From positions 1-64,000 of the IMG/VR virus record IMGVR_UViG_3300029998_000013: a DNA stretch of 64,000 nt; one strand, 5' to 3'. A program made the position numbers and the translations under genes. The notes beneath the pieces were generated by a model. The model ran no database searches. It was given only the letters and a program-made list of their open reading frames with translations, and was not told where the DNA came from. This document shows, piece by piece, positions 3,571-25,070 of this stretch. The stretch comes from a virus. The first letter of the stretch is position 1; every line of letters begins with the position of its first letter.

Positions 3571-3588
3571 TCATTAATTTTTATAAAG

Positions 3589-5331
3589 ATGTTTGACAGC
3601 AAAAAAACAACGTTGTATCCACAACGTTCTGCATCTGCGCAGACTACTGCGAAATCGACGATGAAAACCACAAATCCTTTCTTAAGAGGAGGTCTTCATC
3701 AATCTGCAAAAACAACTGCTCTGGGTAACGGAGCTGTTAAGTTAACAACTACTGGCTCTAATTTTGTTGATCAATTTGGCAAAGTTAGTAATTATAAACA
3801 GCCCAGATCTTATGCTGACATTTGTGTTGACATGAGTACTCTCTGGGCACAAGACAAAAATCTGGCTTTAAGATTCACTTATTACCTACGTATGATCACT
3901 CGGACAATTCAGTTGGAAGATGGATCGAAGACCTCAACCACTCAACGTGGCCAAGGCTTAAAGCACGAAGGAATATACAGAATGATTTGGTTAGCTATCA
4001 ACGCACCAGATACTTTCTGGAAGAATGTCAGCTTATTCATATCTGTCGGCTCATGGAAAGACATCATTCAAATGCTGTCTTTTGATTTGCAGCATCACGG
4101 CTGGAACGGCCGGGTGTTAGATTGGAACAAATTTGGTCAGTTAATTCTGGCTGGTTTAGAGAATCCAAGCACTTGTGAATTGGTAAAGAAGTTTCTTCCT
4201 CAAATTAAGGCAGGCTCAGCTTGTCATACTGTTGAAGCGGAAGCTGATTCAGCTATTGCAAAATGGGTATGTTCTTTACTTTATGGTGTAAAGGAAGATG
4301 AAACAGGTACTACGTACAAAAAGTACCGGAAACTTAAATCTTCAGGAACAGCACACAGTTGGCAGCAATTGATCTCGCAAGGAAACTTTCTTGCAATTGA
4401 TTTCAATTCGGTACATGGACGCGCTCTTTCTCAAATGGTTTCCGGGAAATTCCTCAAGAATCATGAACTTGAGGCAAAGTATGAAGAATTCATTGCGGCT
4501 AAACCAGTGTTGAAATTCACTGGTTATCCCTATGAACTGTTTGCTCCACTTGGTGATTTAGCACGTACCAACGTGCCTAGCGCCAGGTATCAAGTTGATA
4601 CAATCAACAAGCAATTCATGCAGCTTGTTGAAGTTGGAAAGAAAGGTCTGAAACCTGGTGAAAATGGCTTTATTGGCGTAATCGATACATCCGGTTCGAT
4701 GCAGTCAAAGGCAATTGGCGCAAAAGCTTCGGCTTATGTATGTGCCAAGTCTATGGCGTTGTACTTTTCTTATCTCTTAGAAGGTAAATTCAGTAAAGCT
4801 TATCTTGAGTTTTCTGGAGAAACCGTCTTAAAGGTGTGGGAAGGCAACACTCCATTGGAACAGTATGCTAACGCAAACCGTTCCTTTAATGGAAACACTA
4901 ACTTTCTTTCCGTAGCTAAACACTTCGGTGACATTCTCAAGGAAGGCGTAGCTGAATCAGAATTTCCTACTGGCATCCTTTGTATGACAGATGGTTGTTT
5001 TGATCCTACGTATGTGTACAATTGCGGGGTTCGTCAAGAAGGAAACTTTAAGGCTCTCTTGTTAGCATTGCGTCAGCAAGGCTTCAGTGATCAATTTGTG
5101 GACAATTTCCGTGTTGTTCTTTGGGATATTCCTAATGGACATTATGGAGCTTCACAGACTGCATTTGAAGAATTTGCTGACTGTCCCAATCTCTTCCACT
5201 TATCTGGATTTGATGGAGCAGTACTCGGCTTCCTAACGGGTGTGGAGCATCAAGCTTCTATCCCGAAAACATCAGATGAGCTCTTCCTAGCAGCAATGGA
5301 TCAGGAAGTACTCAATCTATTAGAGGTGTAA
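3589..5331 (+). CDS. TROVE/DUF2828-like protein with C-terminal vWA domain (Ro60-type architecture)
   Basis: 580 aa. Residues about 70-340 form a helical repeat region resembling TROVE/DUF2828, with RGQGLKHEGIYRMIW, WKDIIQML and KKYRKLKSSG. Residues about 355-560 are a vWA domain with an intact metal site: GVIDTSGSMQS (DxSxS), then NGNTNF and CMTDGCFD. Ro60-type proteins are rings that bind misfolded and Y RNAs. A strongly folded RNA of about 250 bases starts right after the stop codon, the usual position of a bacterial Ro-associated Y RNA. Architecture is seen; RNA binding is inferred. Confidence 0.75.
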   Translation: MFDSKKTTLYPQRSASAQTTAKSTMKTTNPFLRGGLHQSAKTTALGNGAVKLTTTGSNFVDQFGKVSNYKQPRSYADICVDMSTLWAQDKNLALRFTYYLRMITRTIQLEDGSKTSTTQRGQGLKHEGIYRMIWLAINAPDTFWKNVSLFISVGSWKDIIQMLSFDLQHHGWNGRVLDWNKFGQLILAGLENPSTCELVKKFLPQIKAGSACHTVEAEADSAIAKWVCSLLYGVKEDETGTTYKKYRKLKSSGTAHSWQQLISQGNFLAIDFNSVHGRALSQMVSGKFLKNHELEAKYEEFIAAKPVLKFTGYPYELFAPLGDLARTNVPSARYQVDTINKQFMQLVEVGKKGLKPGENGFIGVIDTSGSMQSKAIGAKASAYVCAKSMALYFSYLLEGKFSKAYLEFSGETVLKVWEGNTPLEQYANANRSFNGNTNFLSVAKHFGDILKEGVAESEFPTGILCMTDGCFDPTYVYNCGVRQEGNFKALLLALRQQGFSDQFVDNFRVVLWDIPNGHYGASQTAFEEFADCPNLFHLSGFDGAVLGFLTGVEHQASIPKTSDELFLAAMDQEVLNLLEV

Positions 5332-5334: not shown

Positions 5335-5580
5335 TCTGATGTAGGTGAAAATCCTACTTAGTGGCGTCAGCAAATCCCAAAAAATTATGACAAGTCCGAT
5401 CTAAAGGATTATTCACTTGGGATCCAAGCACAAGCTTGGGCAAAAACTTCAATTTCACTCAGTCAATCTAAGACGGTTGGCTACCTCCCTCGCCACTAGT
5501 AAATAGACTAAAGGAGAATAACCTGGATGGACAGGTAAAAGGCTGAGTGAGATTGATTTTATAAGCACTGAGGACAATGG
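5335..5580 (+). ncRNA. Candidate pseudoknotted RNA next to the Ro-like gene
   Basis: This 250-base stretch lies between the Ro-like and SPFH genes. TAGTGGCG (5359-5366) pairs with CGCCACTA (5491-5498). AATTTCACTCAG (5451-5462) pairs with CTGAGTGAGATT (5543-5554). The two long helices interleave, which predicts a pseudoknot or two alternative folds. Local hairpins: GTAGG/CCTAC (5341-5357), CTTGG/CCAAG (5417-5429), ACCTG/CAGGT (5521-5536). The first helix also closes one copy of the repeated ACAGCAAAUCC element. A Y-RNA-like partner of the upstream protein is the attractive but unproved reading. Confidence 0.55.
5359..5498 (+). repeat. Stem-closed ACAGCAAAUCC RNA element, copy 1
   Basis: Left stem 5359-5366, one spacer base, then CAGCAAATCCCAAA at 5368-5381, a longer insert than in other copies, and right stem 5491-5498. 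It is embedded in the larger RNA candidate. Confidence 0.5.
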
Positions 5581-5628
5581 CGAACCTTAGGAAGAAACAG
5601 CCAATAAACCAAAACCAAATTAAGCTTT

Positions 5629-7956
5629 ATGGCAACATTAAGTGCGATACTCGCCTTCTGGTGGGTACTTCCAGCATTGCTGGGTCTTGTGATTTTATCT
5701 AAGTTTTTTGTGAACGTTGGTGCTACTGAAATGGCAACGATTGAAAAGCGATTCATTGGCAAGGAAATGGCTGATGGTCGTACTGTAGCCTTACCGGGGG
5801 AAGTTGGTGTACAAGCCAAAATCCTTGGATCAGGATTACATTTTCTGATTCCTTTTATTCAAATTGCGCGAAAGTACAAATATTTGGTCATTAATGATGA
5901 TCAAATAGGTCTGGTTGCCGCTATTACAGGGAAATCAATTCCACAAGGACAGTTTATGGCTGCTGATGTGGCGTGTAACACTTTTCAGGATGGCGAAGCT
6001 TTCCTACGTAATGGTGGAGAAAAAGGACCACAAGTTGCCATCATTCCTCCCGGACAGCACAGAATCAATCCGTATCTGTTTACAGTACAGGTAGTTTCAG
6101 CTGTTCATGTTGCTCAAAATCAAATCGCAACTGTTGAAGCTGTTGCCGGCGCATCTATTGCTCCAGGTCGTATCATGGCTAAATCTGTGGAATGTAACCT
6201 GTTCCAAGATGGTGTGAAGTTTCTAACCAATGGCGGCCAAAAAGGTCCTCAGGTGGAAACATTGACTCCTGGTATGTATCGTATCAACACTTACTTGTTC
6301 AAAGTAAATGTTTGTCCGGTCACAGTAGTTCCTGGTGGTAAGATCTGTATGGTTACTGCCGTAGATGGAGTGCAAATTCCTGACGGCAGACTATTGGCTG
6401 ACAAAGTTCAAAATCATTCAAACTTTGAAAAAGGTGAAGAATTTTTGAAGAACGGTGGTCAAAAAGGTCGCCAAATTCAAGCATTGATGCCGGGTGTGTA
6501 TCGTATCAATCCAAATCTGTTCCAAGTCAGTCAACCTGAAGATTGGACAATGATTGCTGCTGATGAAGTTGGTGTTGTTACTATTTTGGAAGGTAAGCCT
6601 ATTACTGAAGCCGGTAAAATTGCTGCCGATGAAGTTCCTCTGGAAGTTCATCAGAATTTCCAAGATACTGACGCATTTCTTCAGGCTGGTGGTCAGAAAG
6701 GTTTGCAGATTCCTGTACTCAGGGCTGGTAACTACGCCATCAATCCCTGGTTTGCCCGCGTCAAAAAGCAAAAGATGGTCGATGTCGAAATTGGTGAGTG
6801 TGCTGTAGTAACCAACTTTGTTGGTGATGAAGGCGAAGACACTTCCGATTCTGCTGTTAATGCCAAGATTGTTGAAAACGGTAAAAGAGGTATCTGGAAA
6901 GATCCTCTGGGCCCTGGCAAGCATGCCCTCAATTTGGACATTTGCAAAGTGGATATCGTTCCCACAACACAAATCCTGCTCAGTTGGGCAAACGATGAGT
7001 CTAGTGCTCATAAGTTTGACTCCAACTTGAAGACTATTACTTTGAGAACCGCTGATGCTTTCAATGTGAATATGGACGTTCGCGTTATCATTCATATCGC
7101 TATGGCTGATGCACCCAAAGTGATTGCCAATTTGGGATCTGTTACCAACATGATCTCTCAGGTTCTGGAACCGGCCATTAGCTCGCATTTCAGAAATGCT
7201 GCTCAATCCGTGGAAGCTTTGGAACTCTACACCAAGCGTGCAGAGTTGCAAGAAAAGGCCAAACTTCACATCTGTGACGTACTCAGAGTGCATCATATTG
7301 AATCGAAAGATACAATGATCGCTGATGTGGTTCTTCCAATCGAATTGACAAAGCCGGTAACTGACAGACAGATTGCTGCTCAGGAAAAGAAAACCTTTGA
7401 AACTCAGAAAGATGCTCAGAAAGAGCGTCAACAATTGGCAAATGCAACGGCTCAAGCCGATATGCAGCCGGAAGTTGTTAAATCTGAAAGAGGGGTTGAA
7501 ATCTCCAAGAACTTCGCCAACTCGAAGATTCAAGAAGCAACTGGTGCTGCTGAAGGAACCAAAATCAAAGCAAATGCTGATGCAACCAACGAAGTTACCA
7601 TTGCTACGGCAAAAGCAACTGCAATCAAATTGACTGCATCTGCCAGCGCTGAACAAGTCAGTAAAGTAGGTACTGCAGAAGCTGCTGTTATCCTTGCAAA
7701 AGGTCAATCAACAGCTGAAGCATACAAGCTTTCTGTACAAGCCATGGGTACCGACTACGCCAAACTGAAGATGATCGAATCGATCGTTGAAGGTAAAATC
7801 AAATTGATTCCGGAAAACATCATCATCAGTGGTGGTGGCAACGGAGACAATGGCGGTTCATTAGTCGAAAACTTTCTCGGTCTTTCAATGATCGAAAAAC
7901 TCACCGGCAAGAAGTTCAACTCAGTCATGGCAGAAGAAGCCAAAACCGAAGCTTAA
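5629..7956 (+). CDS. Large SPFH (flotillin/stomatin-like) protein with tandem N-terminal repeats
   Basis: 775 aa. An N-terminal membrane segment (about residues 5-27) anchors the protein. Residues about 90-390 hold four related repeats of about 75 aa: a FQDG.. / FLxNGGQKGxQ box, then PGxYRINPxLFxV. An SPFH-like domain follows at about 395-590, with LGPGKHALNLDICKVDIV and NVNMDVRVIIHIA. A long Ala/Lys/Glu-rich coiled coil (about 595-735) resembles the flotillin tail. Such proteins form membrane-bound cages that organise patches. It is unusually long for the family because of the repeats. A hairpin terminator follows. Confidence 0.8.
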   Translation: MATLSAILAFWWVLPALLGLVILSKFFVNVGATEMATIEKRFIGKEMADGRTVALPGEVGVQAKILGSGLHFLIPFIQIARKYKYLVINDDQIGLVAAITGKSIPQGQFMAADVACNTFQDGEAFLRNGGEKGPQVAIIPPGQHRINPYLFTVQVVSAVHVAQNQIATVEAVAGASIAPGRIMAKSVECNLFQDGVKFLTNGGQKGPQVETLTPGMYRINTYLFKVNVCPVTVVPGGKICMVTAVDGVQIPDGRLLADKVQNHSNFEKGEEFLKNGGQKGRQIQALMPGVYRINPNLFQVSQPEDWTMIAADEVGVVTILEGKPITEAGKIAADEVPLEVHQNFQDTDAFLQAGGQKGLQIPVLRAGNYAINPWFARVKKQKMVDVEIGECAVVTNFVGDEGEDTSDSAVNAKIVENGKRGIWKDPLGPGKHALNLDICKVDIVPTTQILLSWANDESSAHKFDSNLKTITLRTADAFNVNMDVRVIIHIAMADAPKVIANLGSVTNMISQVLEPAISSHFRNAAQSVEALELYTKRAELQEKAKLHICDVLRVHHIESKDTMIADVVLPIELTKPVTDRQIAAQEKKTFETQKDAQKERQQLANATAQADMQPEVVKSERGVEISKNFANSKIQEATGAAEGTKIKANADATNEVTIATAKATAIKLTASASAEQVSKVGTAEAAVILAKGQSTAEAYKLSVQAMGTDYAKLKMIESIVEGKIKLIPENIIISGGGNGDNGGSLVENFLGLSMIEKLTGKKFNSVMAEEAKTEA

Positions 7957-7975
7957 TAAGCTTCAAAATAAAAAA

Positions 7976-8010
7976 GGAGAAACTGTCGAAAGATAGTTTC
8001 TCCCTTTCAT
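7976..8010 (+). terminator. Intrinsic terminator after the SPFH gene
   Basis: GGAGAAACT (7976-7984) pairs with AGTTTCTCC (7995-8003), followed by a short pyrimidine-rich tail. Confidence 0.75.
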
Positions 8011-8011
8011 A

Positions 8012-8084
8012 AGCTCAGAGACAGCAAAACCAAATCAAAACTACAAAAAATCCAATTTAATTTTTAAGTAAAAAGATCTGAGCT
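8012..8084 (+). repeat. Stem-closed ACAGCAAAUCC RNA element, copy 2
   Basis: AGCTCAGA (8012-8019) pairs with TCTGAGCT (8077-8084). ACAGCAAAACCAAATC begins two bases after the left strand at 8021. It abuts the truncated ATP-grasp fragment. Confidence 0.6.
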
Positions 8085-8403
8085 GTTTCCAACCTCTCCC
8101 TATATTCTGAAAGCGTCCGAATCACCACTATTCGATAACTATTGCAAGAAGCCAATCTTTTCAAGAGAGGGCGCAAATGTTTCATTGATGAAGTACGGTG
8201 TATTACTGGAAGAAGCAGGAGGCGAGTATGGAGAAGAAGGCTTTATCTATCAAGAACTGGTAGAGATTGAGCCGTACGACGAAATGTATCCCGTACTAGG
8301 ATCATGGGTTATTGGAGGAGAATCATGTGGCATTGGTATTAGAGAGACATTCTCTCGAATTACTAATAACATGTCATATTTTGTTCCTCATGTTATTGAA
8401 TAA
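8068..8403 (+). pseudogene. C-terminal fragment of a glutathionylspermidine-synthase-type ATP-grasp enzyme
   Basis: The open frame reads KKPIFSREGANVSL, then GEEGFIYQELVEIEPYDEMY, then GSWVIGGESCGIGIRE and FVPH. These are hallmarks of the C-terminal ATP-grasp part of GspS/YgiC-type ligases. Those enzymes exceed 350 aa; only about 110 codons remain and no ATG opens the frame. TTG 8185 would give 72 aa and cut through the conserved part. The frame begins inside the right stem of an RNA element. It is most likely a decayed remnant, or a domain whose partner lies elsewhere. Confidence 0.55.
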
Positions 8404-8409
8404 AAGCGG

Positions 8410-8436
8410 GGGCCCTGAAAGCGGGCCCAAATTTTT
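8410..8436 (+). terminator. Intrinsic terminator
   Basis: GGGCCC (8410-8415) and GGGCCC (8423-8428) pair around a short loop, followed by AAATTTTT. Confidence 0.65.
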
Positions 8437-8465
8437 ACTAATAACTTTTTAAGACGGCGTGTGAA

Positions 8466-8891
8466 ATGCATATTTTTATACCGTATATTCCTAATGAGCA
8501 ACCAACTATGACAAGACAAGAACAACTTTTGATTAAAAGTGTGGCAGATCAGTTAGAGAAAAGTACTCGTACTGATTGGACACAAGGCGACTTAAGTGCT
8601 TGGTCTGCTTGGGCATATCGTATGCGTGATACTATTCGTAGTACTATGCCTACACTGCAGACCTTGATCTCTGATCAATATCAAGCAGCTCATCCTACCC
8701 CTTCTCCTGATTATCTATTAGCCGCAAGAGCACAAGCTCAAACTCAAGCAGACCTTGAAAGAGCTCGAGGTAATATTCAGATTCCTCGACAGATTCCTCC
8801 TAATTATGGAGTTATTCCTGACGCATACACCAAAGATCCTACACAGGTTGAAATGGTGCCAAGAAAGAGACCTACACTTGAAGATCTCTAA
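8466..8891 (+). CDS. Hypothetical protein
   Basis: 141 aa, mainly helical, Gln/Ala-rich around residues 80-100, with a Pro-rich C-terminal part (IPRQIPPNYG). It stands between a terminator and two RNA elements, so it has its own transcription context. An in-frame ATG at 8508 could be the true start. No family is recognised. Confidence 0.6.
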   Translation: MHIFIPYIPNEQPTMTRQEQLLIKSVADQLEKSTRTDWTQGDLSAWSAWAYRMRDTIRSTMPTLQTLISDQYQAAHPTPSPDYLLAARAQAQTQADLERARGNIQIPRQIPPNYGVIPDAYTKDPTQVEMVPRKRPTLEDL

Positions 8892-8899
8892 AAAAATTA

Positions 8900-8974
8900 A
8901 AGCTCCTAACAGCAAATCCAAAGTAAATCTTTAATCCGCCCAGTGGGCAGAATAACTACAAACAAATGGAGCTT
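8900..8974 (+). repeat. Stem-closed ACAGCAAAUCC RNA element, copy 3
   Basis: AAGCTCC (8900-8906) pairs with GGAGCTT (8968-8974). The box ACAGCAAATCCAAAG starts at 8909. An inner hairpin GCCCA/GGGC is present near 8938-8949. Confidence 0.65.
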
Positions 8975-8978
8975 GATA

Positions 8979-9093
8979 AGAACACATGCAGCAAATCCAA
9001 ACCCAAAATTTAAATTTGTAAATTAAAACGAGATCTTAGTAACGCAAGATCGCTCTATGGCCGAGGCACAAGTGTGGAATTTCGGAGTGTTCT
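8979..9093 (+). repeat. Stem-closed ACAGCAAAUCC RNA element, copy 4
   Basis: AGAACAC (8979-8985) pairs with GTGTTCT (9087-9093). The box GCAGCAAATCCAAACCC begins at 8988. An inner hairpin GATCTT/AAGATC lies near 9034-9053. The closing stem is more distant here, so this copy is less certain. Confidence 0.5.
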
Positions 9094-9124
9094 GTTTATT
9101 TTTTTTACCTTAAATCATTTTTAT

Positions 9125-9490
9125 ATGATGACAGCTATTTTCTTTGGCATTGCCTTTGGTTTCCTTGCCTATGAGTTTTATAAACTCTTTCATCTAAAGA
9201 CAATTATTTATTTAAATCAAGGAATTAAGAGTGTGGCTAATGAGTTGCCGGACAAAGATAATTATAAAGAAGATATGAAGAGTATAAGGAGCCTTGCTCT
9301 TATTAACTTTTACTATTGGATTTGGTTACTTCTTGGTCTTATTACAAGCCAGGCTATATTATTTGGCCCTTTAATCATTTTTGAACTCTTTCATAAGGGA
9401 AAGAAGGTTACTTTATTTCTTGATGGAGTCTTTTCTATTTTGGCAATTACTTTTATTTTACTGAATCACTTTTACTTACACTTATTTTGA
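9125..9490 (+). CDS. Small multi-spanning membrane protein
   Basis: 121 aa with about three hydrophobic segments (residues 2-20, 70-95 and 103-120) and a charged loop between the first two. ATG 9125 is preferred over GTG 9074 because the region before it folds into an RNA element. The TGA stop lies four bases before the next ATG. Function unknown. Confidence 0.6.
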   Translation: MMTAIFFGIAFGFLAYEFYKLFHLKTIIYLNQGIKSVANELPDKDNYKEDMKSIRSLALINFYYWIWLLLGLITSQAILFGPLIIFELFHKGKKVTLFLDGVFSILAITFILLNHFYLHLF

Positions 9491-9494
9491 AAAC

Positions 9495-9842
9495 ATGGCT
9501 ACTGTAACTGTTAATGGTCAATCCTATTCAGGTAAAAATATTACAGTTAACGGCAACACAGTTGTTGTTGATGGTGTTACTGCTTCTGTTACTACACGTG
9601 TTCTTAAGATTGAAATTGTTGGAGACATTGAGTCTCTATCATGTGAGTCTTGCGACTCTCTTCATATTAAAGGAAACGTGAAACAACTCTCAACTATGTC
9701 AGGGGATGTAGATATTGAGGGTGATGTTATATCTGTAACTACAGCATCAGGAGATGTTACCTGTAAAAACATAAATGGTCCTGTTAAGACTATATCTGGC
9801 GATATTACATGTCGCAATATGACAGGAGACATGCATTTGTAA
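9495..9842 (+). CDS. Bactofilin/DUF4097-like beta-repeat protein
   Basis: 115 aa made of short beta repeats: LHIKGNVKQLSTMSGDVDIEG, then ITTASGDV-type and TISGDITCRN turns. The recurring SGDV/I rungs suggest a small beta-helix or beta-solenoid as in DUF4097 and bactofilin-like proteins. Its neighbours are a membrane protein and a vWA protein. A structural or polymer-forming role is inferred only. Confidence 0.5.
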   Translation: MATVTVNGQSYSGKNITVNGNTVVVDGVTASVTTRVLKIEIVGDIESLSCESCDSLHIKGNVKQLSTMSGDVDIEGDVISVTTASGDVTCKNINGPVKTISGDITCRNMTGDMHL

Positions 9843-9884
9843 TTTCTTTTTCTAAACATAAGTTTTACTTAAAAGTTTTTCAAA

Positions 9885-10256
9885 ATGGCTGAACCCACAC
9901 TAGAACAACTGCAAAGCGGTTCGTTCTACACCTCTGTTATCAGAGGTAACAAACAAATCAAAGCTGACAGAGGTCAACAACTTCTGGAAGATGGTGAGAT
10001 GTCCTTCCGTCGTAAGATCGAAGACAAAGGTCGCGAGGTTACACGACTCAAACGCACTCTTGTCAACATGCTGGATTTATCTCCAGAAAACATGATGACT
10101 CTCAAAATGGCAGATGACTTCAATCCTGATGAATTTGCTAACCGGTATTGTTCTATTTCTGTAGACGTCAGAAATGAGGTTCTTAAGCTCAATGAGTACA
10201 AGAAAGCTTACAATCGTCTATATGGCGGCACTTACGAAATGGAGGCCGTTGACTAA
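9885..10256 (+). CDS. Hypothetical helical protein
   Basis: 123 aa, charged and helical, with a coiled-coil-like segment (RKIEDKGREVTRLKRTLVNM). The stop codon overlaps the ATG of the vWA gene at 10256, so the two are co-translated and may interact. No family is recognised. Confidence 0.65.
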   Translation: MAEPTLEQLQSGSFYTSVIRGNKQIKADRGQQLLEDGEMSFRRKIEDKGREVTRLKRTLVNMLDLSPENMMTLKMADDFNPDEFANRYCSISVDVRNEVLKLNEYKKAYNRLYGGTYEMEAVD

Positions 10257-11149
10257 TGGGCCACGGTTCGTATTCTACCGAATCCAGGTCTTTAAGATCT
10301 GAAGCATTGGGTTATCAAACCAAATCTGCAAACGAAATTTTCTCGAACAAATTTGATCCTTTGATGAATCCCAATGGTGTTGGCATTCGTGAGTCTCGCG
10401 ACTCCGAAGACCATCCAAATTCTGTTCCAATTATATTTGCTTTAGATGTTACCGGTTCTATGGGTATGATTCCTCATCACTTAGTGAAAGAGGGATTGCC
10501 TGTTATGATGTCCGGCATTATTGAAGCAGGTGTTTTGGATCCTCAAGTAATGTTTTTAGGAATAGGTGATCATGAATGTGATTATGCCCCACTGCAGATC
10601 TCACAATTTGAATCCAATGACGAGTTACTCGACAAATGGTTAACCAAAGTGTGGATCGAGAGAGGGGGCGGTACTAATGAAGGCGAAAGCTATTCGTTGG
10701 CTCACTACTTTGCAGCATTCCACACGTCTTTGGACTGTTTTGAAAAGCGTGGTAAAAAGGGATTTCTCTTCACAGTTGGTGATGAACCAACTCTGCGGAA
10801 TTATCCAGCTCGCAAACTGAGCGCTATCACTGGAAATGGTCAAGAACAAACGTATTCTGATGCCGAACTTTTAGCGGAAGCTCAAAAGAAGTACCATGTC
10901 TATCATTTACATATGAGACAAGGTGCTAATGGTCGTCATCAGCCTACTATGGATGGCTGGAAACAATTGTTGGGAAGTAATCTTATTCTTGTCGATGACA
11001 AAACTAAGATTCCCGCAATTATTGCACAAATCGTTTCATCGGTTGAGGCTCAATCTGTTAATCAGGGGATTGAAGCTTATAACAACCGCCCACAACCTGT
11101 ACTTGAGCCAGAGGGCCCAAGACCCACTTCATCAGACATGATGCTTTAA
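10256..11149 (+). CDS. vWA-domain protein
   Basis: 297 aa. A vWA domain spans about residues 55-265. The metal-binding motif is FALDVTGSMGM (DxTGS variant), followed by GIGDHECD and RGGGTNEGESY. The last 30 residues are Pro-rich. vWA proteins bind metal-dependent partners, often MoxR-type ATPases, and one is encoded about 9 kb upstream. Function in the phage is unknown. Confidence 0.75.
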   Translation: MGHGSYSTESRSLRSEALGYQTKSANEIFSNKFDPLMNPNGVGIRESRDSEDHPNSVPIIFALDVTGSMGMIPHHLVKEGLPVMMSGIIEAGVLDPQVMFLGIGDHECDYAPLQISQFESNDELLDKWLTKVWIERGGGTNEGESYSLAHYFAAFHTSLDCFEKRGKKGFLFTVGDEPTLRNYPARKLSAITGNGQEQTYSDAELLAEAQKKYHVYHLHMRQGANGRHQPTMDGWKQLLGSNLILVDDKTKIPAIIAQIVSSVEAQSVNQGIEAYNNRPQPVLEPEGPRPTSSDMML

Positions 11150-11190
11150 TTTTTCTAATCATATTGTTAACCCCCTAAAAGATTACAACT

Positions 11191-11343
11191 ATGGGAATGG
11201 ATCAAGGCACTTATAGTGCAAAGACATGGGAACAGGTTGCTGAAAACTTGGAAACCAAGCCATCAGCTGAAACCGATCTTCCTATCGCAACAGCTGAAGC
11301 TGCTGCACCTGCTGAAGAAGTTGAGCCGACAGTTACTGAATAG
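11191..11343 (+). CDS. Small acidic Ala/Glu/Pro-rich protein
   Basis: A 50-codon gene starting MGMDQGTYSAKTWEQVAE and ending in an acidic Ala/Pro/Glu tail. It fits exactly between the vWA gene and the PurA-like gene, 5 bases before the latter. Its codon use matches its neighbours, which supports a real gene. No function can be assigned. Confidence 0.5.
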   Translation: MGMDQGTYSAKTWEQVAENLETKPSAETDLPIATAEAAAPAEEVEPTVTE

Positions 11344-11348
11344 TCTTA

Positions 11349-12449
11349 ATGGCTAACAAAGCTGTCATAGGCTTAGGCTTTGGAGATGAGGGCAAAGGAT
11401 TAGTGACAAACTACCTTTGCCTTCAGAATCCAAAAGCTTTGGTTGTCAGATATTCTGGTGGCCAACAAGCCGGACATACCGTTATCAAGGATGATATACG
11501 GCATGTATTTTCAAATTTTGGGTCTGGCACTCTAAACGGAAATCCTACCTATTGGTCGGAATTCTGCACTGTCGATCCAATTGGAGTTTATCAAGAACTC
11601 CAAGTACTTCTATCGAAGGGCATTAAACCCCTTCTTTACATTGATGCAATGTGTCCAGTGACTACACCTATGGAGAAACGCTTGAATCAAACTTTAGATA
11701 TGGAGCACGGTACTTGCGGCTGTGGTGTGTGGAGAACACACCTCCGTGAACGAAATGGTGCTTCAATATTATTTGAAGATTTAGCTTTTCCAAGCGTTCT
11801 GGATATGAAACTCAAAGCGTTGAGCTCTACATACCCACCTGGAGTGTATGATGAACAAGAAATTTCTATATTTAAGTATTGCTGTAATATGCTACTTCAA
11901 TCTAGTCATGTTCAAGGCATCTTTGGGATTCCTGAAGCAGAGGAGTACATCTTTGAAAGTTCGCAAGGACTTCTCTTAGATCCTGCTTTTGGTTTTTACC
12001 CGCACGTGACAGCATCATCCGTTGGCTCAGCCAACATCCTGAAATTTCCAATTGAAGTTCCTGAGTTTTATTTAGTTACAAGAGCCTACCAAACACGACA
12101 TGGTAATGGCCCTATGACTAATGCTCAATTTCCGCTTAATATCACGCCTAACCCGGTAGAGACAAATGTATTTAACCAGTATCAGTTAGATTTTCGCACA
12201 TCAGTGCTTGATCTCGAACTTTTGATGTATGGTGCCTCCAAGGATTTTGCCATTAGTACAAGCCCTGAAAATACTTTAGTAATTACGTGTCTGGACCAAA
12301 TGAATTCTTTCTCTCTTAGTGATGATAACAAGGTTATCCACTTTGACAATGAAGAAAGCTTTGTTAATCACATCGCTAATCAAATGGTTACTCCTCACGT
12401 CTTACTGAGTCACAGCCCCCGGTCAGAGTGTATTACTCACTTCAAATAA
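11349..12449 (+). CDS. Adenylosuccinate synthetase family enzyme (PurA/PurZ-like)
   Basis: 366 aa, shorter than cellular PurA (about 430). The P-loop GLGFGDEGKG keeps the catalytic Asp, and QQAGHTV matches the next conserved block. FESSQGLLLDPAFGFYPHVT and RAYQTRHGNGP match the later blocks but look closer to viral PurZ (GF.PH.T and TRHG) than to PurA (GTYPFVTSS and TRVG). PurA joins aspartate to IMP. PurZ uses dGMP and leads to 2-aminoadenine DNA. Retention of Asp in GDEGKG fits PurA or the Asp-retaining PurZ0 type. A family A polymerase lies in the same window. Confidence 0.75.
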   Translation: MANKAVIGLGFGDEGKGLVTNYLCLQNPKALVVRYSGGQQAGHTVIKDDIRHVFSNFGSGTLNGNPTYWSEFCTVDPIGVYQELQVLLSKGIKPLLYIDAMCPVTTPMEKRLNQTLDMEHGTCGCGVWRTHLRERNGASILFEDLAFPSVLDMKLKALSSTYPPGVYDEQEISIFKYCCNMLLQSSHVQGIFGIPEAEEYIFESSQGLLLDPAFGFYPHVTASSVGSANILKFPIEVPEFYLVTRAYQTRHGNGPMTNAQFPLNITPNPVETNVFNQYQLDFRTSVLDLELLMYGASKDFAISTSPENTLVITCLDQMNSFSLSDDNKVIHFDNEESFVNHIANQMVTPHVLLSHSPRSECITHFK

Positions 12450-12459
12450 AATTTCTTTA

Positions 12460-12512
12460 AGAATACATACAGCAACTCAAACTCTATATGGTTTAGAAAA
12501 CAAACGTATTCT
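12460..12512 (+). repeat. Stem-closed ACAGCAAAUCC RNA element, copy 5
   Basis: AGAATAC (12460-12466) pairs with GTATTCT (12506-12512). The box ACAGCAACTCAAACTC starts at 12469. Confidence 0.6.
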
Positions 12513-12516
12513 GATA

Positions 12517-12577
12517 AGGTCAATTACAGCAAATCAAACTGAAAAACAATGAAAAGGTTTCAACCAAACATTGACCT
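12517..12577 (+). repeat. Stem-closed ACAGCAAAUCC RNA element, copy 6
   Basis: AGGTCAAT (12517-12524) pairs with ATTGACCT (12570-12577). The box ACAGCAAATCAAACTG starts at 12526, two bases after the left strand. A small inner hairpin GGTT/AACC is present. Confidence 0.65.
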
Positions 12578-14773: not shown

Positions 14774-15321
14774 AGGATCTACGGGGGTGTTTGGTTTTGA
14801 CAGCATTGAGTAGGGTAGCAGAACACACTAGGAGGAGTCCAAAATACTCAAAACAACAAACGACAACAGAAATGTTATCAACTTCGTACCACGTGCATCT
14901 GTACGTGCATACAACCAAATGGCTGCGTAACAAAACGAACGGAGTCGGTCTTAGACTTTGTTAAAGAAATTAAGACAGTAGTTCTCGGACTTAAACCGAG
15001 TGGTGGAAGATGGCGGAGAAATTCGTTCCCATGTTTTGTTAGTTTTCTCAAAACTAAACAGAGAAAGTACTGCAAAGACTAAGTGTGTATATTTTGTTAT
15101 TTTTCCTTTGTATGGACGGCGGTTTAAGATTTGGACCCCTTATGCAGTAATGTATATTGAAAATTGGATGAATTCAGGGAACACTAAACGAAGCAATTCG
15201 CATGTCAATCCTGAGCTAAGCAGAGAATACATTCTCTGAAAGTGCAACGACTACCTGAGAGATATAGTTCTCTTAATAACAGGAATAAGCGTCCGACATC
15301 CCTAAGGGATGATGATATAGT

Positions 15322-15888
15322 CTAATCTTCTAGGAAACTAGAAGTGAAAGTTGAGATTTGATTTAGAAACTCTTTAGTTTCTATATCTGACATCTCTTGT
15401 TTCATTAAGTTAATTGGAGTAGATACAAATTGTATGTTATCAATAATATAACCTTTGCTAGAGTCAATTCTATCTAAGGAAGCTCTTTGAGTTATATGAA
15501 TAATATTTAAATTGTTATCTTCCGGCAAAATTAAAGTAATTCCAGAATATGGACAAATGCCATTTTGTTTCTCCCAAACTTCTTTTAAAACATCTAAAGT
15601 AATATTAATTTCTTTGTCCCTCCTTTTAACACATCTTAAAGTATATCTAAAAGAACTGAATTCATCTCTTCTATTTGGACGTATTTTATCTAAGTGTTCT
15701 TTTTGAGAATCTGACAATGTTTTTGATGCTCTATGTGAATTATTATAAGAAGTTGCACAACTTCGTGAACAAAAACACTTTCTATCTAACTCTTTATTTC
15801 TTTTCAATTCAGACGCAGGTTTTTCTGCTTCTTTTCCACAGCAATCACAAATAAATGTTGCTGATTTTCTTCCATCATTTTGTTTCAT
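15322..15888 (-). CDS. HNH homing endonuclease, antisense inside the tmRNA intron
   Basis: 188 aa. A zinc-ribbon-like start (CDCCGKEAEKPAS, CFCSRSCATSY) precedes an HNH region with ICPYSGITL and RASLDRIDSSKGYIIDNIQFVS. Free-standing and intron HNH enzymes cut intron-less alleles to spread the intron. It is read opposite to the tmRNA and has its own -7 box (15914-15921) about 26 bases upstream of its ATG. Trp is written TGG here. Confidence 0.85.
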   Translation of the reverse strand: MKQNDGRKSATFICDCCGKEAEKPASELKRNKELDRKCFCSRSCATSYNNSHRASKTLSDSQKEHLDKIRPNRRDEFSSFRYTLRCVKRRDKEINITLDVLKEVWEKQNGICPYSGITLILPEDNNLNIIHITQRASLDRIDSSKGYIIDNIQFVSTPINLMKQEMSDIETKEFLNQISTFTSSFLED

Positions 15889-19744: not shown

Positions 19745-19792
19745 TCTGAACAAAAAGTTTTAGCTAATTACTAGATTAGTTAATTGAAGATG

Positions 19793-19863
19793 GTGGGTTC
19801 ATCTAGAGGCCTAGGATTTAAGATTTTCAATCTTACCACACGGATTCGAATTCCGTACCCACT
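19793..19863 (+). tRNA. tRNA-Glu(UUC)
   Basis: Anticodon arm TAAGA-TTTTCAA-TCTTA and T arm ACGGA-TTCGAAT-TCCGT. Acceptor GTGGGTT pairs with TACCCAC except at one position. First tRNA of the array. Confidence 0.85.
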
Positions 19864-19921
19864 ACTAGTAGTTTAATCTATATTTTTCTTAATTTGAACT
19901 GTTTTATAATTTTATTTTTCG

Positions 19922-19929
19922 TACTTTTG
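19922..19929 (+). promoter_or_regulatory. Bacteroidota-type -7 box for an HNH gene
   Basis: TACTTTTG, 20 bases before the HNH start codon. Confidence 0.5.
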
Positions 19930-19949
19930 TATATCAAAAAAAATATATT

Positions 19950-20576
19950 ATGAGTAAGTACAAAAAAGAAGAATTAGAAAAGTTAATTTTTGAAGATAAA
20001 TTACCATACGACACCATTGGAGAATTATATGGTGTTACTGGAGCCTCAATTCGTAAGGCAGCAAATAGATTAGGCATAGAATTACCTAAACGAAGAGAAA
20101 TTAATCCAACTGAAACCTTTAATAAGGGTGTACGTAAAGTTGGAGAAATATGTTGTGAAAATTGTGGACAACCACTAAAGTCACATCAATTAAGATTTTG
20201 TAGTAGGCAGTGTAAAGCAGATTTTGAATATACATCGTTTATTCTACGTTGGCAAAATGGACAGGAAGAAGGTCTTTCTGGAAAAGATGGAATATCTGGT
20301 TATATTGAAAAATATGTAAGAATAAAACATAATAATAAATGTCAAAAATGTGGCTGGAATGCTGTAAATGAAAGTTCAGGTAAAGTTCCATTACATATTC
20401 ATCATGTTGATGGAGATTCACATAATAATCAAGAAGACAATTTAGAACTATTATGTCCTAATTGTCATAGTTTAACCGATAATTATGGTAGTTTAAACAA
20501 AGAAAGTACAAGAACTTCTTTAAAAGAATTAAGAGAGGTGATTAAATCTCGTAACTTAGAAGAAGTAATTAAATAA
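19950..20576 (+). CDS. Free-standing HNH homing endonuclease
   Basis: 208 aa. An N-terminal helix-turn-helix (KLPYDTIGELYGVTGASIRK) precedes a zinc-finger-like CENCGQPLK...FCSRQC unit and an HNH domain (CQKCGWNAV, HIHHVDGDSHNNQEDNLELL, CPNCHSLTDNYG). It sits between tRNA-Glu and tRNA-Met with its own promoter box, a typical site for a mobile endonuclease. Trp is encoded by TGG, unlike three other endonucleases in this window. Confidence 0.9.
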   Translation: MSKYKKEELEKLIFEDKLPYDTIGELYGVTGASIRKAANRLGIELPKRREINPTETFNKGVRKVGEICCENCGQPLKSHQLRFCSRQCKADFEYTSFILRWQNGQEEGLSGKDGISGYIEKYVRIKHNNKCQKCGWNAVNESSGKVPLHIHHVDGDSHNNQEDNLELLCPNCHSLTDNYGSLNKESTRTSLKELREVIKSRNLEEVIK

Positions 20577-20579
20577 ATC

Positions 20580-20651
20580 GTGGGGTAGTAGTAGTTGGTA
20601 ACTCGCTGTGCTCATAACTCAGAGATCGCCGGTTCGAGTCCGGCCCCCGCA
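20580..20651 (+). tRNA. tRNA-Met(CAU)
   Basis: Loop CTCATAA gives CAU. The T arm GCCGG-TTCGAGT-CCGGC is perfect. Three CAU tRNAs exist in the array; which one is the initiator or the lysidine-modified Ile tRNA cannot be fixed by eye. Confidence 0.85.
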
Positions 20652-20661
20652 ACTAATAAAA

Positions 20662-20735
20662 CGAATAGTAGGAAAGTTGATTAATCCGCTACATTTGGGA
20701 TGTAGAAATCGAAGGTTTGAGTCCTTCCTATTCGA
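20662..20735 (+). tRNA. tRNA-Pro(UGG)
   Basis: Acceptor CGAATAG/CTATTCG and anticodon arm CTACA-TTTGGGA-TGTAG. Confidence 0.9.
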
Positions 20736-20774
20736 CAATTGTTTTTTAATTAGATCCATTTTTTAAACCAGATT

Positions 20775-21800
20775 ATGAAAAAACTTATTCAGAACAACAC
20801 AACCTTCACTCTTGGAGAATTTACAGACATGCATGAAACACTTCCCGTTGGGAATTATGTTTTAAAGTTTGATGAACAAAAAGGAATCTTTTATCTTCAA
20901 GAACAAGAGCCTTTTGTGCTGCCTCCAAAGCTTTACGGAGACTTCTCTTTTATCGAAAGATGGAAGAAGTCTTATGTTGCTAATACGGGTAAAAACCTTG
21001 GTATTTTATTATCCGGTGTAAAAGGAACAGGTAAAACTATCTCTGCGCAGAAATTCTGCATAGAAATGGAAAAACCTGTAATCTTTATTACTGAGAATTA
21101 CTCAGGTCCAGGATTTGAATCCTTTATCACAAGTTCTCTGTTCAATGATTGTATCATCTTTATTGATGAATATGAAAAGTTGTATCAAGAGGATCGCGAT
21201 GAAGCTGAAAAGCTTTTGACTTTGATGGATGGTGTGTACAATACTCGCTTCATTTTCCTTTTGACAGTTAATGACCCTGATGCTATTTCTGACAAATTGA
21301 AGAATCGTTTGAATCGTGTGAAATACCACAAAGTCTTTGAAACATTGGAAAAATCTATTATTGACGGTATCGTTAATGATATGTTGGAAGATGAGCAGTT
21401 CAAAGATTCTATCTATGAATTCATTCTTCGCTTTGGATTCATTACTCCGGATATCTTGGTCACTTTGATTAAGGAAGTCAATTTCTTTAAAGAATCTGCT
21501 TTGGTCTGTGCTTCATACCTCAATTTGAGCTATGAAAGGGCTTATTACCAAATTAAGGTTGTTTACAAAGGCGAGCAACATTCTTGTGAATCTATGGAGT
21601 TAAATCCAATGGTTGATACATTCAGAATTAGCTTCTATGACGAAGTTCCGAAAGAGTTGACCAATACCTTGCCATATAAAATCAGGTTTAAAATGAGGGA
21701 TTATCCATTTACTCGCACTGAATCTGGTTATACTTTTGAGTACAATTCAGATATTCAAATCCAGCTTTCTACACATCAAAGACGTGCATTAGTATTCTAA
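20775..21800 (+). CDS. AAA+ ATPase
   Basis: 341 aa. Walker A is SGVKGTGKT near residue 85, Walker B is CIIFIDEYEK near residue 128, and sensor-1-like FLLTVND follows. The C-terminal third is beta-rich and unknown. It resembles CDC48/BCS1-type phage ATPases; three others with related cores occur at 9, 35220 and 58370. It sits inside the tRNA array, so a function in RNA or protein remodelling is possible but unproven. Confidence 0.8.
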   Translation: MKKLIQNNTTFTLGEFTDMHETLPVGNYVLKFDEQKGIFYLQEQEPFVLPPKLYGDFSFIERWKKSYVANTGKNLGILLSGVKGTGKTISAQKFCIEMEKPVIFITENYSGPGFESFITSSLFNDCIIFIDEYEKLYQEDRDEAEKLLTLMDGVYNTRFIFLLTVNDPDAISDKLKNRLNRVKYHKVFETLEKSIIDGIVNDMLEDEQFKDSIYEFILRFGFITPDILVTLIKEVNFFKESALVCASYLNLSYERAYYQIKVVYKGEQHSCESMELNPMVDTFRISFYDEVPKELTNTLPYKIRFKMRDYPFTRTESGYTFEYNSDIQIQLSTHQRRALVF

Positions 21801-21803
21801 GTT

Positions 21804-22141
21804 ATGGAAATCGCTGAAGAAGAAGTAAAGAAGTCTCTTGGTAATATAGCTAATATCAAGCTTGGCTTAACTGAGCCGATGAATATGAATTTTTCCTTGG
21901 AAACACTTCGTAATCTTACGCCCATGTGTGGAAAAAATGGTTCAGGAAAAACAATGGTCAATAAACTTATCTTCTTCTCATCTATGGTAACGCTGCTAAT
22001 AATCATAGAGATAATTATCGAGCAATCTGTTCTAATTGTGATTCACAGTTAGATACATATAAATCTAAAAATAAAAATGGTGCACGAAGTTATTATAGAT
22101 ATAATAAAGAAAATGGTGGAATAATTGGAAATGCGCAGGAA
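21804..22141 (+). pseudogene. Chimeric remnant: P-loop ATPase start joined to an HNH endonuclease tail
   Basis: The first 60 codons read like the beginning of an ABC/SMC-type ATPase (LTPMCGKNGSGKTM, Walker A). The homology then stops. In another frame, from about 21993, the sequence reads YGNAANNHRDNYRAICSNCD then SQLDTYKSKNK, the C-terminal half of an HNH endonuclease. The HNH frame ends at TAG 22142-22144, inside the next tRNA. This looks like an insertion followed by deletion that destroyed both genes. Confidence 0.6.
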
Positions 22142-22219
22142 TAGCACGTAATTGGAAGCGTATCACTCTTCTAAAGTGATGACTTTATGTCCTTGGGGGT
22201 TCGATCCCCTCTTCCTGTA
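22135..22219 (+). tRNA. tRNA-Arg(UCU) with enlarged variable region
   Basis: Anticodon arm TCACT-CTTCTAA-AGTGA and T arm GGGGG-TTCGATC-CCCTC. Acceptor GCAGGAA/TTCCTGT. The variable region is about 15 bases with a possible GAC/GTC mini-stem, unusual for Arg. Confidence 0.75.
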
Positions 22220-22229
22220 CACTATAAAT

Positions 22230-22301
22230 GGGCATATGGCCAAGTGGTAAGGCGTTTCTCTGCAAAAGAAATATGCGTCAGTCCGATTCTGACTATGCCC
22301 T
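22230..22301 (+). tRNA. tRNA-Cys(GCA)
   Basis: Acceptor GGGCATA/TATGCCC and anticodon arm TTTCT-CTGCAAA-AGAAA. Confidence 0.9.
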
Positions 22302-22306
22302 CATAT

Positions 22307-22380
22307 GCCGAAATAGCTCAGGTGGTTAGAGCGTTGGATTCATAACCCAGAGGTCACAAGTTCAAATCTTGTTTTCGGTA
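22307..22380 (+). tRNA. tRNA with CAU anticodon (Met or Ile2)
   Basis: Loop TTCATAA. Acceptor GCCGAAA/TTTCGGT. D arm AGCTCAGGTGGTTAGAGC. Confidence 0.85.
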
Positions 22381-22394
22381 CTAAATTTTTAACT

Positions 22395-22805
22395 ATGAAA
22401 TTTTCATTTGATTTTGATAGCACACTCTCAAGGAGATCTGTGCAACATATTGCTAAGTTACTTATTAAAGCTGGACACGAAGTTCACATTGTAACTAGTA
22501 GATATGAAGATACTGCTAAGTATGTTATGGCTGATTGTATTGGACAATGTCATGTTGACTTATTCAGAGTATCTGATCGTTTAGGTATTAAACGAGAAAA
22601 TATTCATTTTATGAATATGAAAGATAAATATCATTTCTTTTTAGAGAATCCTGATTTTGTATTTCATTTAGATGATGATGTCAAAGAAATATTACTTATA
22701 CAAGCTCAAACGGTTGTAATGGGAATATTATGTGATTATTCAGCTGAATGGAAAGATACAGTTGAGGAAGTATTTAAAAGACTTGAATTAGACCTGGCCC
22801 TTTAG
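22395..22805 (+). CDS. HAD-like hydrolase
   Basis: 136 aa. Motif I is FSFDFDSTL, motif II region HIVTSRYEDT, and the acidic motif is FHLDDDVKE. A small HAD phosphatase without cap, like phage nucleotidase-type enzymes. Its last three codons overlap the 5' end of tRNA-Arg(ACG), so processing of that tRNA would cut the mRNA. Substrate unknown. Confidence 0.7.
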   Translation: MKFSFDFDSTLSRRSVQHIAKLLIKAGHEVHIVTSRYEDTAKYVMADCIGQCHVDLFRVSDRLGIKRENIHFMNMKDKYHFFLENPDFVFHLDDDVKEILLIQAQTVVMGILCDYSAEWKDTVEEVFKRLELDLAL

Positions 22806-22868
22806 TTCAATCGAATAGAACAGTAGACTACGGATCTGTAGATACGGGTTTGACTCCTGTAGGGGTCA
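22796..22868 (+). tRNA. tRNA-Arg(ACG)
   Basis: Loop CTACGGA. Acceptor GGCCCTT/AGGGGTC with wobbles, T loop TTTGACT. It overlaps the end of the upstream CDS. Confidence 0.8.
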
Positions 22869-22877
22869 CAAAGAAAA

Positions 22878-23092
22878 AAGAATTTAGATTGAAGCAAACA
22901 GAACTTCAAGCCAATAACCCCTGATTCTTATTGGGATCAAGTTATAGCGAAGATGAAACCATATTTGCAGTATGGTTGGGTTTGTGTAAATATATGTTAT
23001 ATCCATACGGCTCTCAATTAGAGCATTGAACTCACTTGAAATTAATTCATATGAGGGATAGTATAATGTATTCACTGCAAGACTAAATTCTT
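22878..23092 (+). other. Structured spacer closed by a long-range stem
   Basis: No gene. AAGAATTTAG (22878-22887) pairs with CTAAATTCTT (23083-23092). Inside are hairpins CCAATAA/TTATTGG, ACCATA/TATGGT and GCTCT/AGAGC. It may help processing of the tRNA precursor or be a separate RNA. Confidence 0.4.
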
Positions 23093-23095
23093 CAC

Positions 23096-23169
23096 GGGGT
23101 ATTAGCTCAGTCGGCTAGAGCAATTGCTTTGCAAGCAATAGGTCAAGGGTTCAAGTCCCTTATGCTCCA
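23096..23169 (+). tRNA. tRNA-Ala(UGC)
   Basis: Anticodon arm ATTGC-TTTGCAA-GCAAT. Acceptor GGGGTAT/ATGCTCC with wobbles. Confidence 0.9.
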
Positions 23170-23170
23170 C

Positions 23171-23263
23171 AATACACGAATCAAAGAGATCATCACTGGC
23201 AATAAGTTTCCATGGTAGGTGCAACTTTTACAAACTAAATGCATTTAGTCCGATTCGTGTATT
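23171..23263 (+). other. Structured spacer with 12-bp closing stem
   Basis: AATACACGAATC pairs perfectly with GATTCGTGTATT. Inner hairpins AAGTT/AACTT and the self-complementary CTAAATGCATTTAG give a cloverleaf-like outline without an anticodon arm of standard form. Confidence 0.45.
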
Positions 23264-23338
23264 TCCAAGCATCTCCAAGATTTTCTGAGAATAATTGCAA
23301 ATCGTATGTTGCATTGGGTTCAAATCCCTTCTTGGGGA
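23263..23338 (+). tRNA. tRNA-like sequence, possible tRNA-Thr(CGU) with 8-base anticodon loop
   Basis: Acceptor TTCCAAG/CTTGGGG, D arm CTC/GAG, and T loop TTCAAAT are present. The anticodon stem TGCAA/TTGCA encloses eight bases, ATCGTATG, instead of seven. It could be a decayed tRNA or an expanded-loop tRNA. Confidence 0.45.
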
Positions 23339-23464
23339 CATTACAGCACGTTGCTGTATTAAAAATCGTAAAATTATGAAGAAAACGTAGATTTTCTTTG
23401 CTCGAGGTTCTCCTTGTTGTTTTAAATTAGAAAACTTAGTAATAACAATTTAAATTAAAACACA

Positions 23465-23770
23465 ATGAAAACTTTAAAAGGAGAAATAAAACAAATGTCA
23501 AAAGAACAAACGTTCTTAAAAGATCAAAGGAAGTCAGTGTATAATAAAAGTGAACGAGTAATGGAACCTTGGAAAGCTTCTTACAAACATAACTCAAATC
23601 GTGAAGATTTGCGTTTGATGTATGCAGCTTACGGTATCATGAGAGGAAGAACTTTTAGTCAAATTGAAAATACGCATCCAGAGGAGTCACATCCTTTGAG
23701 AGCATTTCAGAGAGATATTGACAAGTTAATTGAACAGTATGAACAAGAGGTTGTACATATTAGTGAGTAA
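23465..23770 (+). CDS. Hypothetical basic helical protein
   Basis: 101 aa, rich in Lys, Arg and Glu (KDQRKSVYNKSERVMEPWKA). About 120 bases of AT-rich leader precede it. Its 3' end overlaps the PTH2-like gene by 32 bases. No family is recognised. Confidence 0.6.
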   Translation: MKTLKGEIKQMSKEQTFLKDQRKSVYNKSERVMEPWKASYKHNSNREDLRLMYAAYGIMRGRTFSQIENTHPEESHPLRAFQRDIDKLIEQYEQEVVHISE

Positions 23771-24032
23771 TTCTTTAGAGCCAATCTATGCCTGTGTACA
23801 GGGCGGACACGCAGTAGCACAGTGGTTGTTGGACAATAAGGATACTCAAACATGGGATAACAATTACTTGATATATTTGTCCGCAGATATCGAGAAATGG
23901 TTATTTAAACTAAACTGTAAACAATTACGCTATTCTGTATTTAGGGAACCCGATCTCGGGAATGTGCCTACAGCAATAGCCATTGAATCAGACGGAACAT
24001 TGTTTCGTAATTTGAGATTAATGGGTGAATAA
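23739..24032 (+). CDS. PTH2-like peptidyl-tRNA hydrolase
   Basis: 97 aa. RLYILVSNSLEPIYACVQGG followed by HAVAQWLLD matches the PTH2 core, in which the early Gly-His segment and surrounding residues shape the active site. FREPDLGNVPTAIAIE matches the later conserved block. PTH2 frees tRNA from prematurely released peptides, and its place inside the tRNA array fits that role. ATG 23739 is preferred over TTG 23730. Confidence 0.7.
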   Translation: MNKRLYILVSNSLEPIYACVQGGHAVAQWLLDNKDTQTWDNNYLIYLSADIEKWLFKLNCKQLRYSVFREPDLGNVPTAIAIESDGTLFRNLRLMGE

Positions 24033-24196
24033 CCCAAAAAGTAGTAACTCTGAATTGACAGGGTAAATAATAACGAGGTCGTGGGATATGTTACGTACAG
24101 TATGGCATATTAGGAAAAGGTAGATGAAACAAGAGCTGTAAGACACGTGGAATCTGGTAATTATTGTTTGGGGAAACCCTATTATTTTTTTTAAAT
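24033..24196 (+). other. Non-coding spacer between PTH2-like gene and amber tRNA
   Basis: About 160 bases without a gene. A hairpin ATATG/CATAT near 24089-24113 and a GGG-GAAA-CCC hairpin followed by ATTATTTTTTTT (24170-24193) that may be a weak terminator. Confidence 0.35.
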
Positions 24197-24270
24197 GGTC
24201 TTTTAGCTCAGTGGCCCAGAGCGACGGCTTCTAGTCCCGTGCGTCGTGGGTTCGAATCCCATAGAGACCA
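24197..24270 (+). tRNA. Suppressor-type tRNA(CUA) reading UAG
   Basis: A canonical cloverleaf: acceptor GGTCTTT/AGAGACC, D stem GCTC/GAGC, anticodon stem ACGGC/CCCGT with a C-C mismatch at 31-39, loop TTCTAGT giving anticodon CUA, variable GCGTC, T arm GTGGG-TTCGAAT-CCCAT, discriminator A. It would decode amber codons. Phages using UAG as Gln carry such tRNAs. The amino acid cannot be read here, and a normal tRNA-Gln(UUG) is also present. Confidence 0.85.
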
Positions 24271-24314
24271 CAAGGTTTTCGTCCCTCCTCCTTTCCACAA
24301 GTGAGGGACACTAT

Positions 24315-24389
24315 GCACTTTTAGCTCAGCTGGTTCAGAGCATATCCCTTACAAGGATGGGGTCGGGGGTTCGAATCCCTCAAGGTGTA
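24315..24389 (+). tRNA. tRNA-Val(UAC)
   Basis: Loop CTTACAA, stem TATCC/GGATG. Acceptor GCACTTT/AAGGTGT with wobbles. Confidence 0.88.
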
Positions 24390-25069: not shown

Positions 25070-25070
25070 T

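Follow-up and report, generated by a model that had tools for sequence, protein, structure and literature searches.

The window analysed here, the first 64 kb of IMG/VR virus record IMGVR_UViG_3300029998_000013 (178,320 bases), carries a repeated RNA element whose copies are found near the gene of a protein predicted to have the Ro60 fold. We consider it probable that these elements are Y-RNA-like small noncoding RNA partners of the divergent Ro60 of the phage itself, which would bind them through a distinct handle. The elements are sense-strand RNA units with paired ends, they have the sequence ACAGCAA (the box) beside the stem and they lie in arrays near the gene of the predicted Ro60 fold. 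Across phages their presence follows a DUF2828-type protein, many of their interiors are permuted tRNA mimics, and in many relatives one copy lies on a start codon.

A previous reading of the same letters (the sequence-only reading) had listed six copies, and all of them were present at their coordinates with perfect closing stems of 7-8 bp (Table 1). Five of the six have AAG at the 5′ end, and CU followed by G, UG or AG is found at the 3′ end of all six. The first of them starts 28 nt past the stop codon of the Ro60-like gene. The window contains the box with a stem of at least 7 bp 8 times on its + strand (the six copies and two unrelated matches) and not once on its - strand, whereas 200 first-order shuffles of the window yielded 0.8 occurrences on average and 4 at most, so that random sequence did not reproduce the count. 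There was no sense copy in the other 114 kb of the virus record. The statement that the copies are all intergenic held for the six and failed for a seventh, which we found on the start codon of the Ro60-like gene. The elements had not been recognised as a known riboswitch or ribozyme, and in agreement with this no element attained the gathering score of any Rfam family; membership in a described family was therefore rejected.

Table 1. Positions in the window of the element copies, the linkers between neighbouring copies and the Ro60-like gene.
Feature	Positions	Strand	Closing stem (5′/3′)	Box	Remarks
Seventh copy	3587..3636	+	AGATGT ... GCATCT, one G-U pair	ACAGCAA	overlaps Ro60-like start codon; putative autoregulatory site
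Ro60-like RNA-binding protein gene	3589..5331	+			580 aa; phrog_850; MIDAS motif DTSGSM
Copy 1	5359..5498	+	TAGTGGCG/CGCCACTA	TCAGCAA at 5367	structured interior, z -5.4
Copy 2	8012..8084	+	AGCTCAGA/TCTGAGCT	ACAGCAA at 8021	A-rich interior
Copy 3	8900..8974	+	AAGCTCC/GGAGCTT	ACAGCAA at 8909	
GATA linker, copies 3-4	8975..8978	+			
Copy 4	8979..9093	+	AGAACAC/GTGTTCT	GCAGCAA at 8988	two hairpins inside
Copy 5	12460..12512	+	AGAATAC/GTATTCT	ACAGCAA at 12469	
GATA linker, copies 5-6	12513..12516	+			
Copy 6	12517..12577	+	AGGTCAAT/ATTGACCT	ACAGCAA at 12526	

Further copies were sought in 44 IMG/VR loci, gathered with six Ro60-like proteins as query, and in the isolate Leptolyngbya phage Lbo-JY46, which was added to them. 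A strict rule (ACAGCAA box and a perfect closing stem of at least 6 bp starting with AG) gave 142 unique elements in this set, and a slightly relaxed rule gave 179, including a few chance matches in coding regions. The general layout of this widespread family is a variable stem of 6-9 bp that joins the ends (AAG...CU-G), the unpaired ACAGCAA beside its 5′ strand and a variable interior. Under the strict rule a stem accompanied 148 of the 263 sense boxes and none of the 50 antisense boxes, and with permuted control boxes the number with a stem was between 0 and 7. The stems had been described as different in every copy and nevertheless paired, that is, as covarying, and this was borne out: when no stem was selected for, 137 of 174 6-mers at AG had their own complement further downstream, against 10.2 complements on average and 21 at most when the partners were swapped between elements (500 trials). 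In an alignment of 46 short copies both sides changed in 6 of 8 pairs, and the covariation score of the helix was 0.728, against 0.179 for shuffled and at most 0.111 for slid alignments; considering that these copies were picked for good stems, the count that was not selected for a stem is the fair test. Fold and covariation survive proper controls, and the view that the RNA fold is selected stands.

The position of the elements is related to that of the Ro60-like gene. Among the 179 elements, 82 lie within 1 kb downstream of it and 30 more at 1-2.5 kb (112 in total), while 12 sit on its start codon. Tandem arrays reach seven to nine copies, neighbouring copies being mostly separated by 4-5 nt, and GATA is the commonest linker (27 of 96 adjacent pairs). 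In Lbo-JY46 five copies follow in a row, the first one 8 nt past the Ro60-like gene. A covariance model built from the short copies (R1) was run on whole records of up to 314 kb and matched in 20 of 22, with the strong matches a few kb from the gene in nearly all of them.

The assignment of the protein was based on its predicted structure. The 580-residue product matches PHROG 850 "RNA-binding protein" at 1.9e-21 and Pfam DUF2828 and DUF7788 weakly. Its AlphaFold model, obtained from an alignment of 36 relatives, had a mean predicted local distance difference test score of 87.5 and a predicted template modelling score of 0.88, and it shows the helical-repeat ring and the vWA/MIDAS domain that define the Ro60 fold. 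In the Foldseek comparison the top 8 PDB matches were all Ro60 (E 3.8e-7 to 1.4e-4), among them 9nfa (3.8e-7), 1yvr (1.0e-6) and 2i91 (3.0e-6), with 12% identity over nearly the full length. When the same protein was searched by sequence against the PDB there was no match, Ro60 being seen by fold comparison alone, so that this is a Ro60-fold protein remote from the known ones. The TROVE family (PF05731) had no match in the virus of the window nor in the phages with DUF2828-type proteins; its matches were confined to CcrColossus and Bacillus phage G. When bacterial and archaeal genomes were scanned, a single relative was returned, on a short, probably phage contig of a Richelia metagenome-assembled genome; at the sensitivity of that scan no version in a host genome was found.

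A DUF2828-type protein and the element were found together in named phages. DUF2828 and DUF7788 matched strongly the proteins of the six phages checked. R1 matches adjoin the DUF2828 gene in Klebsiella phage KP2025 and Bacillus phage PJN02 and lie directly upstream of it in Campylobacter phage F336, and the model also matched in Vibrio CZ01, Serratia BF, Salmonella Munch and Vibrio KVP40, the copies of KVP40 and BF being inside a tRNA cluster. In a search with PHROG 850, seven phages had a high-scoring DUF2828-type protein and each of them carried a copy (the best E of each phage being between 3e-5 and 0.011), and T4, T5, P-SSM2, phiKZ and MT835469, which do not have the protein, gave no R1 match at E <= 0.01. 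Two matches above this value, in T4 (E 0.037, to part of the model only) and in MT835469 (E 0.27), were judged to be chance; the latter phage has the common neighbouring genes but neither a Ro60-like gene nor a convincing copy. R1 did not match either in CcrColossus or in Bacillus phage G, whose proteins are TROVE-like. Near the TROVE-type Ro60 gene of CcrColossus there are three YrlA-like RNAs with a permuted tRNA (L117:402-1013, given as locus and positions), whose conserved basal stem is a different one (GTGGCGTAG...TTCTTCG) and which have no ACAGCAA. From this contrast, in a comparison that covers few phages, the handle seems to vary with the kind of Ro60 present, and both share the tRNA-mimic payload.

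A particular case is the copy located on the start codon, which in 12 loci starts two bases ahead of the Ro60-like AUG. We compared 41 genes, with a background of 4% of windows: the complement [AG]CAUCU was present about 30-63 nt downstream in 17 of the 19 genes with AG before the AUG and in 2 of the 22 others. A stem over the AUG would bury the start codon, which suggests a feedback control of the protein. The following mechanism can be proposed. The stem and ACAGCAA would be the handle gripped by the Ro60-like ring, and cleavage at the GATA linkers would release the units from a common transcript. The interior would act as a payload that gates the ring, or that tethers it to a partner that handles tRNA or degrades RNA. 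When the free protein exceeded the small RNA, it would bind the copy on its own mRNA, the start codon would be blocked and the protein would in this way set its own level.

It could also be thought that the elements act only in cis on the mRNA (in processing, stability or translation control) and are not separate RNAs acting in trans, which we regard as unlikely. Most copies lie between co-directional genes, the start-codon copy is clearly cis in form and the GATA linkers suggest processing sites; on the other hand, one would not expect plain mRNA processing sites to form tandem arrays of up to seven to nine copies that carry diverse structured payloads, to lie in tRNA clusters far from the protein gene or to mimic tRNA.

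This mimicry was studied in the interiors of 248 elements. A T-arm was present in 48 of them and 13 were permuted tRNAs by a strict definition (T-arm, acceptor 3′ strand, cap, acceptor 5′ strand and then U8 with the D-arm), against none in 1300 shuffled controls. By loci, elements with a T-arm occurred in 23 of 37. An example of a permuted tRNA is L015:11929-12042, with the acceptor CATTAGA-GAAA-TCTAATG and the D-arm TAGCTCAGCTGGTAGAGCA. The model of the bacterial Y RNA YrlA (RF02553) matched several permuted-tRNA elements from several phages (E 4e-6 to 8e-3 in a search of 8.6 kb) and found no permuted tRNA-like domain in the copies of the window, where copies 1 and 4 have structured interiors with no clear T-arm. 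A complete tRNA in normal order is enclosed by the handle at L042:12989-13102, L049:12244-12367, L024:2935-3050 and L054:4528-4642. The payload of L040:12202-12351 contains GGCCCTAAGGTAG, presumably reminiscent of a segment of 23S rRNA.

Permuted tRNA genes exist in some algae and archaea, and the permuted order of the T-arm, acceptor stem and D-arm in many elements, together with the few that enclose a complete tRNA, could be read in the same way, as RNAs that are circularised or end-joined and matured to functional tRNAs. We find this very improbable: about 200 of the 248 elements have no T-arm, the acceptor is often closed by a short cap (GAAA in the example above) with no CCA or free end, the handle occupies the position of the anticodon stem and these phages already have ordinary tRNA sets (25 genes in the window). 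Functional permuted tRNA genes were rejected on account of the capped acceptor stems and the many tRNA-less copies. As for a mobile element, a MITE-like (miniature inverted-repeat transposable element) repeat with inverted ends that spreads in phage genomes, the paired-end units repeated several times per genome recall one, but it is extremely improbable and was discarded, given end stems that vary per copy without conserved inverted repeats, an orientation that strictly follows the Ro60-like gene (148 versus 0) and confinement to a few kb of large genomes.

Several observations weigh against the elements being Y-RNA-like partners of the phage protein. One virus (G014) has a Ro60-like gene and no R1 match in its whole record, and in another (G015) the matches and the gene are about 119 kb apart. 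The copies of Serratia BF, Salmonella Munch, Vibrio CZ01 and KVP40 lie within tRNA clusters or close to them, about 7-200 kb away from the gene, which fits a role in trans and weakens the argument from linkage. The elements without a T-arm predominate, most of them being 50-70 nt long with an A/U-rich loop, and the Ro60-binding stem sequence of YrlA is absent, a single stem with ACAGCAA being found instead. Regarding the start-codon copy, the Fisher p of 1.6e-7 is optimistic because the compared genes are related, and since the complement is in frame a conserved T/A-S peptide may contribute to its conservation.

Some other features were observed in the window. A probable phage transfer-messenger RNA (tmRNA) gene (GGGGGTGTTTGGTTTTGACAGC...) at 14785-15344 is split by a group I intron (Rfam match at 15115-15344), with a reverse-strand HNH-like open reading frame at 15322-15888; the same arrangement of tmRNA, intron and HNH is located at L015:12191-12755, adjoining an element array. 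The 25 tRNA genes extend over 19792-33585 and cover most isotypes; the one with anticodon CTA was called tRNA-Pyl by ARAGORN and is possibly a TAG suppressor. A 775-residue SPFH/Band-7 protein is encoded at 5629-7956 and has several internal repeats N-terminal to the SPFH domain. At 11349-12449 there is an adenylosuccinate synthetase whose closest PHROG is 2-aminooxy adenylosuccinate synthetase; it may be PurZ-like, a possible sign of modified adenine.

The phage system was compared with three known ones. To animal Ro60 and its Y RNAs it is similar in the fold of the protein detected by Foldseek and in a small RNA that is closed by a stem and has a loop that varies, and it differs in the low identity to the solved Ro60 structures already mentioned and in that no animal Y RNA family matched. 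The second comparison is with YrlA. In both the RNA ends pair in a basal stem, a circularly permuted tRNA-like domain with T, acceptor and D arms lies inside (in many of the phage copies) and the RNA is encoded near a Ro60-family gene; this architecture of YrlA has been described (PMC8394870, PMC11472068). The bacterial Y RNA is a circularly permuted tRNA mimic (PMC11472068), the basal stem of which binds the Ro60 orthologue while the tRNA-like domain binds PNPase (PMC8394870). In contrast to YrlA, most phage copies are short and without the tRNA-like domain, the best phage score was 39.5 bits where the gathering cut-off is 69, and the phage protein, a relative of the DUF2828/DUF7788 type, has no TROVE match. 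In 2014 Chen et al. reportedly noted likely Y RNAs close to Ro60 in more than 250 bacterial and phage species. Considering that the payload is common with a TROVE-type phage and that the handle changes with the protein, the comparison suggests that in Y-type RNAs the handle evolves independently of the payload. For a large, divergent phage branch of Ro60-like proteins there is now a specific set of candidate RNA partners that can be tested in the culturable phages KVP40, KP2025, PJN02, F336 and Lbo-JY46.

The third likeness is with the Class I RNAs of Dictyostelium. Their model (RF01414) matched copy 5 at 28.5 bits and copy 6 at 21.4 bits, and many other phage elements, the best of them at 39.7, 39.3 and 37.3 bits (E 6e-5 to 3e-4), below the gathering score of 41.5. 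The sequence-only reading overlooked these described relatives, YrlA and Class I RNA, to which there are repeated sub-threshold matches, and also the adjoining Ro60-like gene. Class I RNAs start with AAG and end with CUGU, their 6-bp stem varies and shows compensatory changes, the 5′ strand is followed by an 11-nt motif and the loop is variable (PMC7919456); they were reported to be unique to dictyostelids and bound by Rnp1A (PMC7919456). Like the short phage copies they are about 42-65 nt long, with the AAG start, the variable stem, a UUACAGCAA-type motif, the variable interior and the CUG end. In the consensus of the 179 phage elements A precedes AG in 166 and G directly follows CU in 129; the last U of CUGU is matched only partly, A being commoner there. 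Where Class I has the 11-nt motif CCUUACAGCAA, the phage elements have ACAGCAA with C and A/U before it, the box itself being the search criterion, and the first motif positions are C-W-W instead of CCUU. The RNA is moreover hosted by a phage and not by an amoeba, longer tRNA-like interiors occur, the DUSE promoter, a eukaryotic element, is not expected in a phage, and Class I RNA has no known link to a Ro60-like protein, its reported binder being Rnp1A. A box of about nine fixed bases with a stem could arise twice, so the same anatomy is no proof of common descent.

Recognition by a related protein would explain this likeness. The common handle, otherwise described only from Class I RNAs, hints at a shared RNA-protein system that had not been connected before. 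As a tentative proposal, which we hold to be possible rather than probable, the phage handle RNAs and the Dictyostelium Class I RNAs may be one class, whose stem and ACAGCAA are recognised by a DUF2828/Ro60-like group of proteins. If this were true, phages would hold tRNA-mimicking and other payloads by the handle, and social amoebae would use it for the developmentally important Class I RNAs; these would have an unrecognised Ro60-like protein as their partner, in the manner of Y RNAs, and the claim that they are restricted to Dictyostelia would be wrong. The comparison would also give a first lead on the binder of the Class I RNAs.
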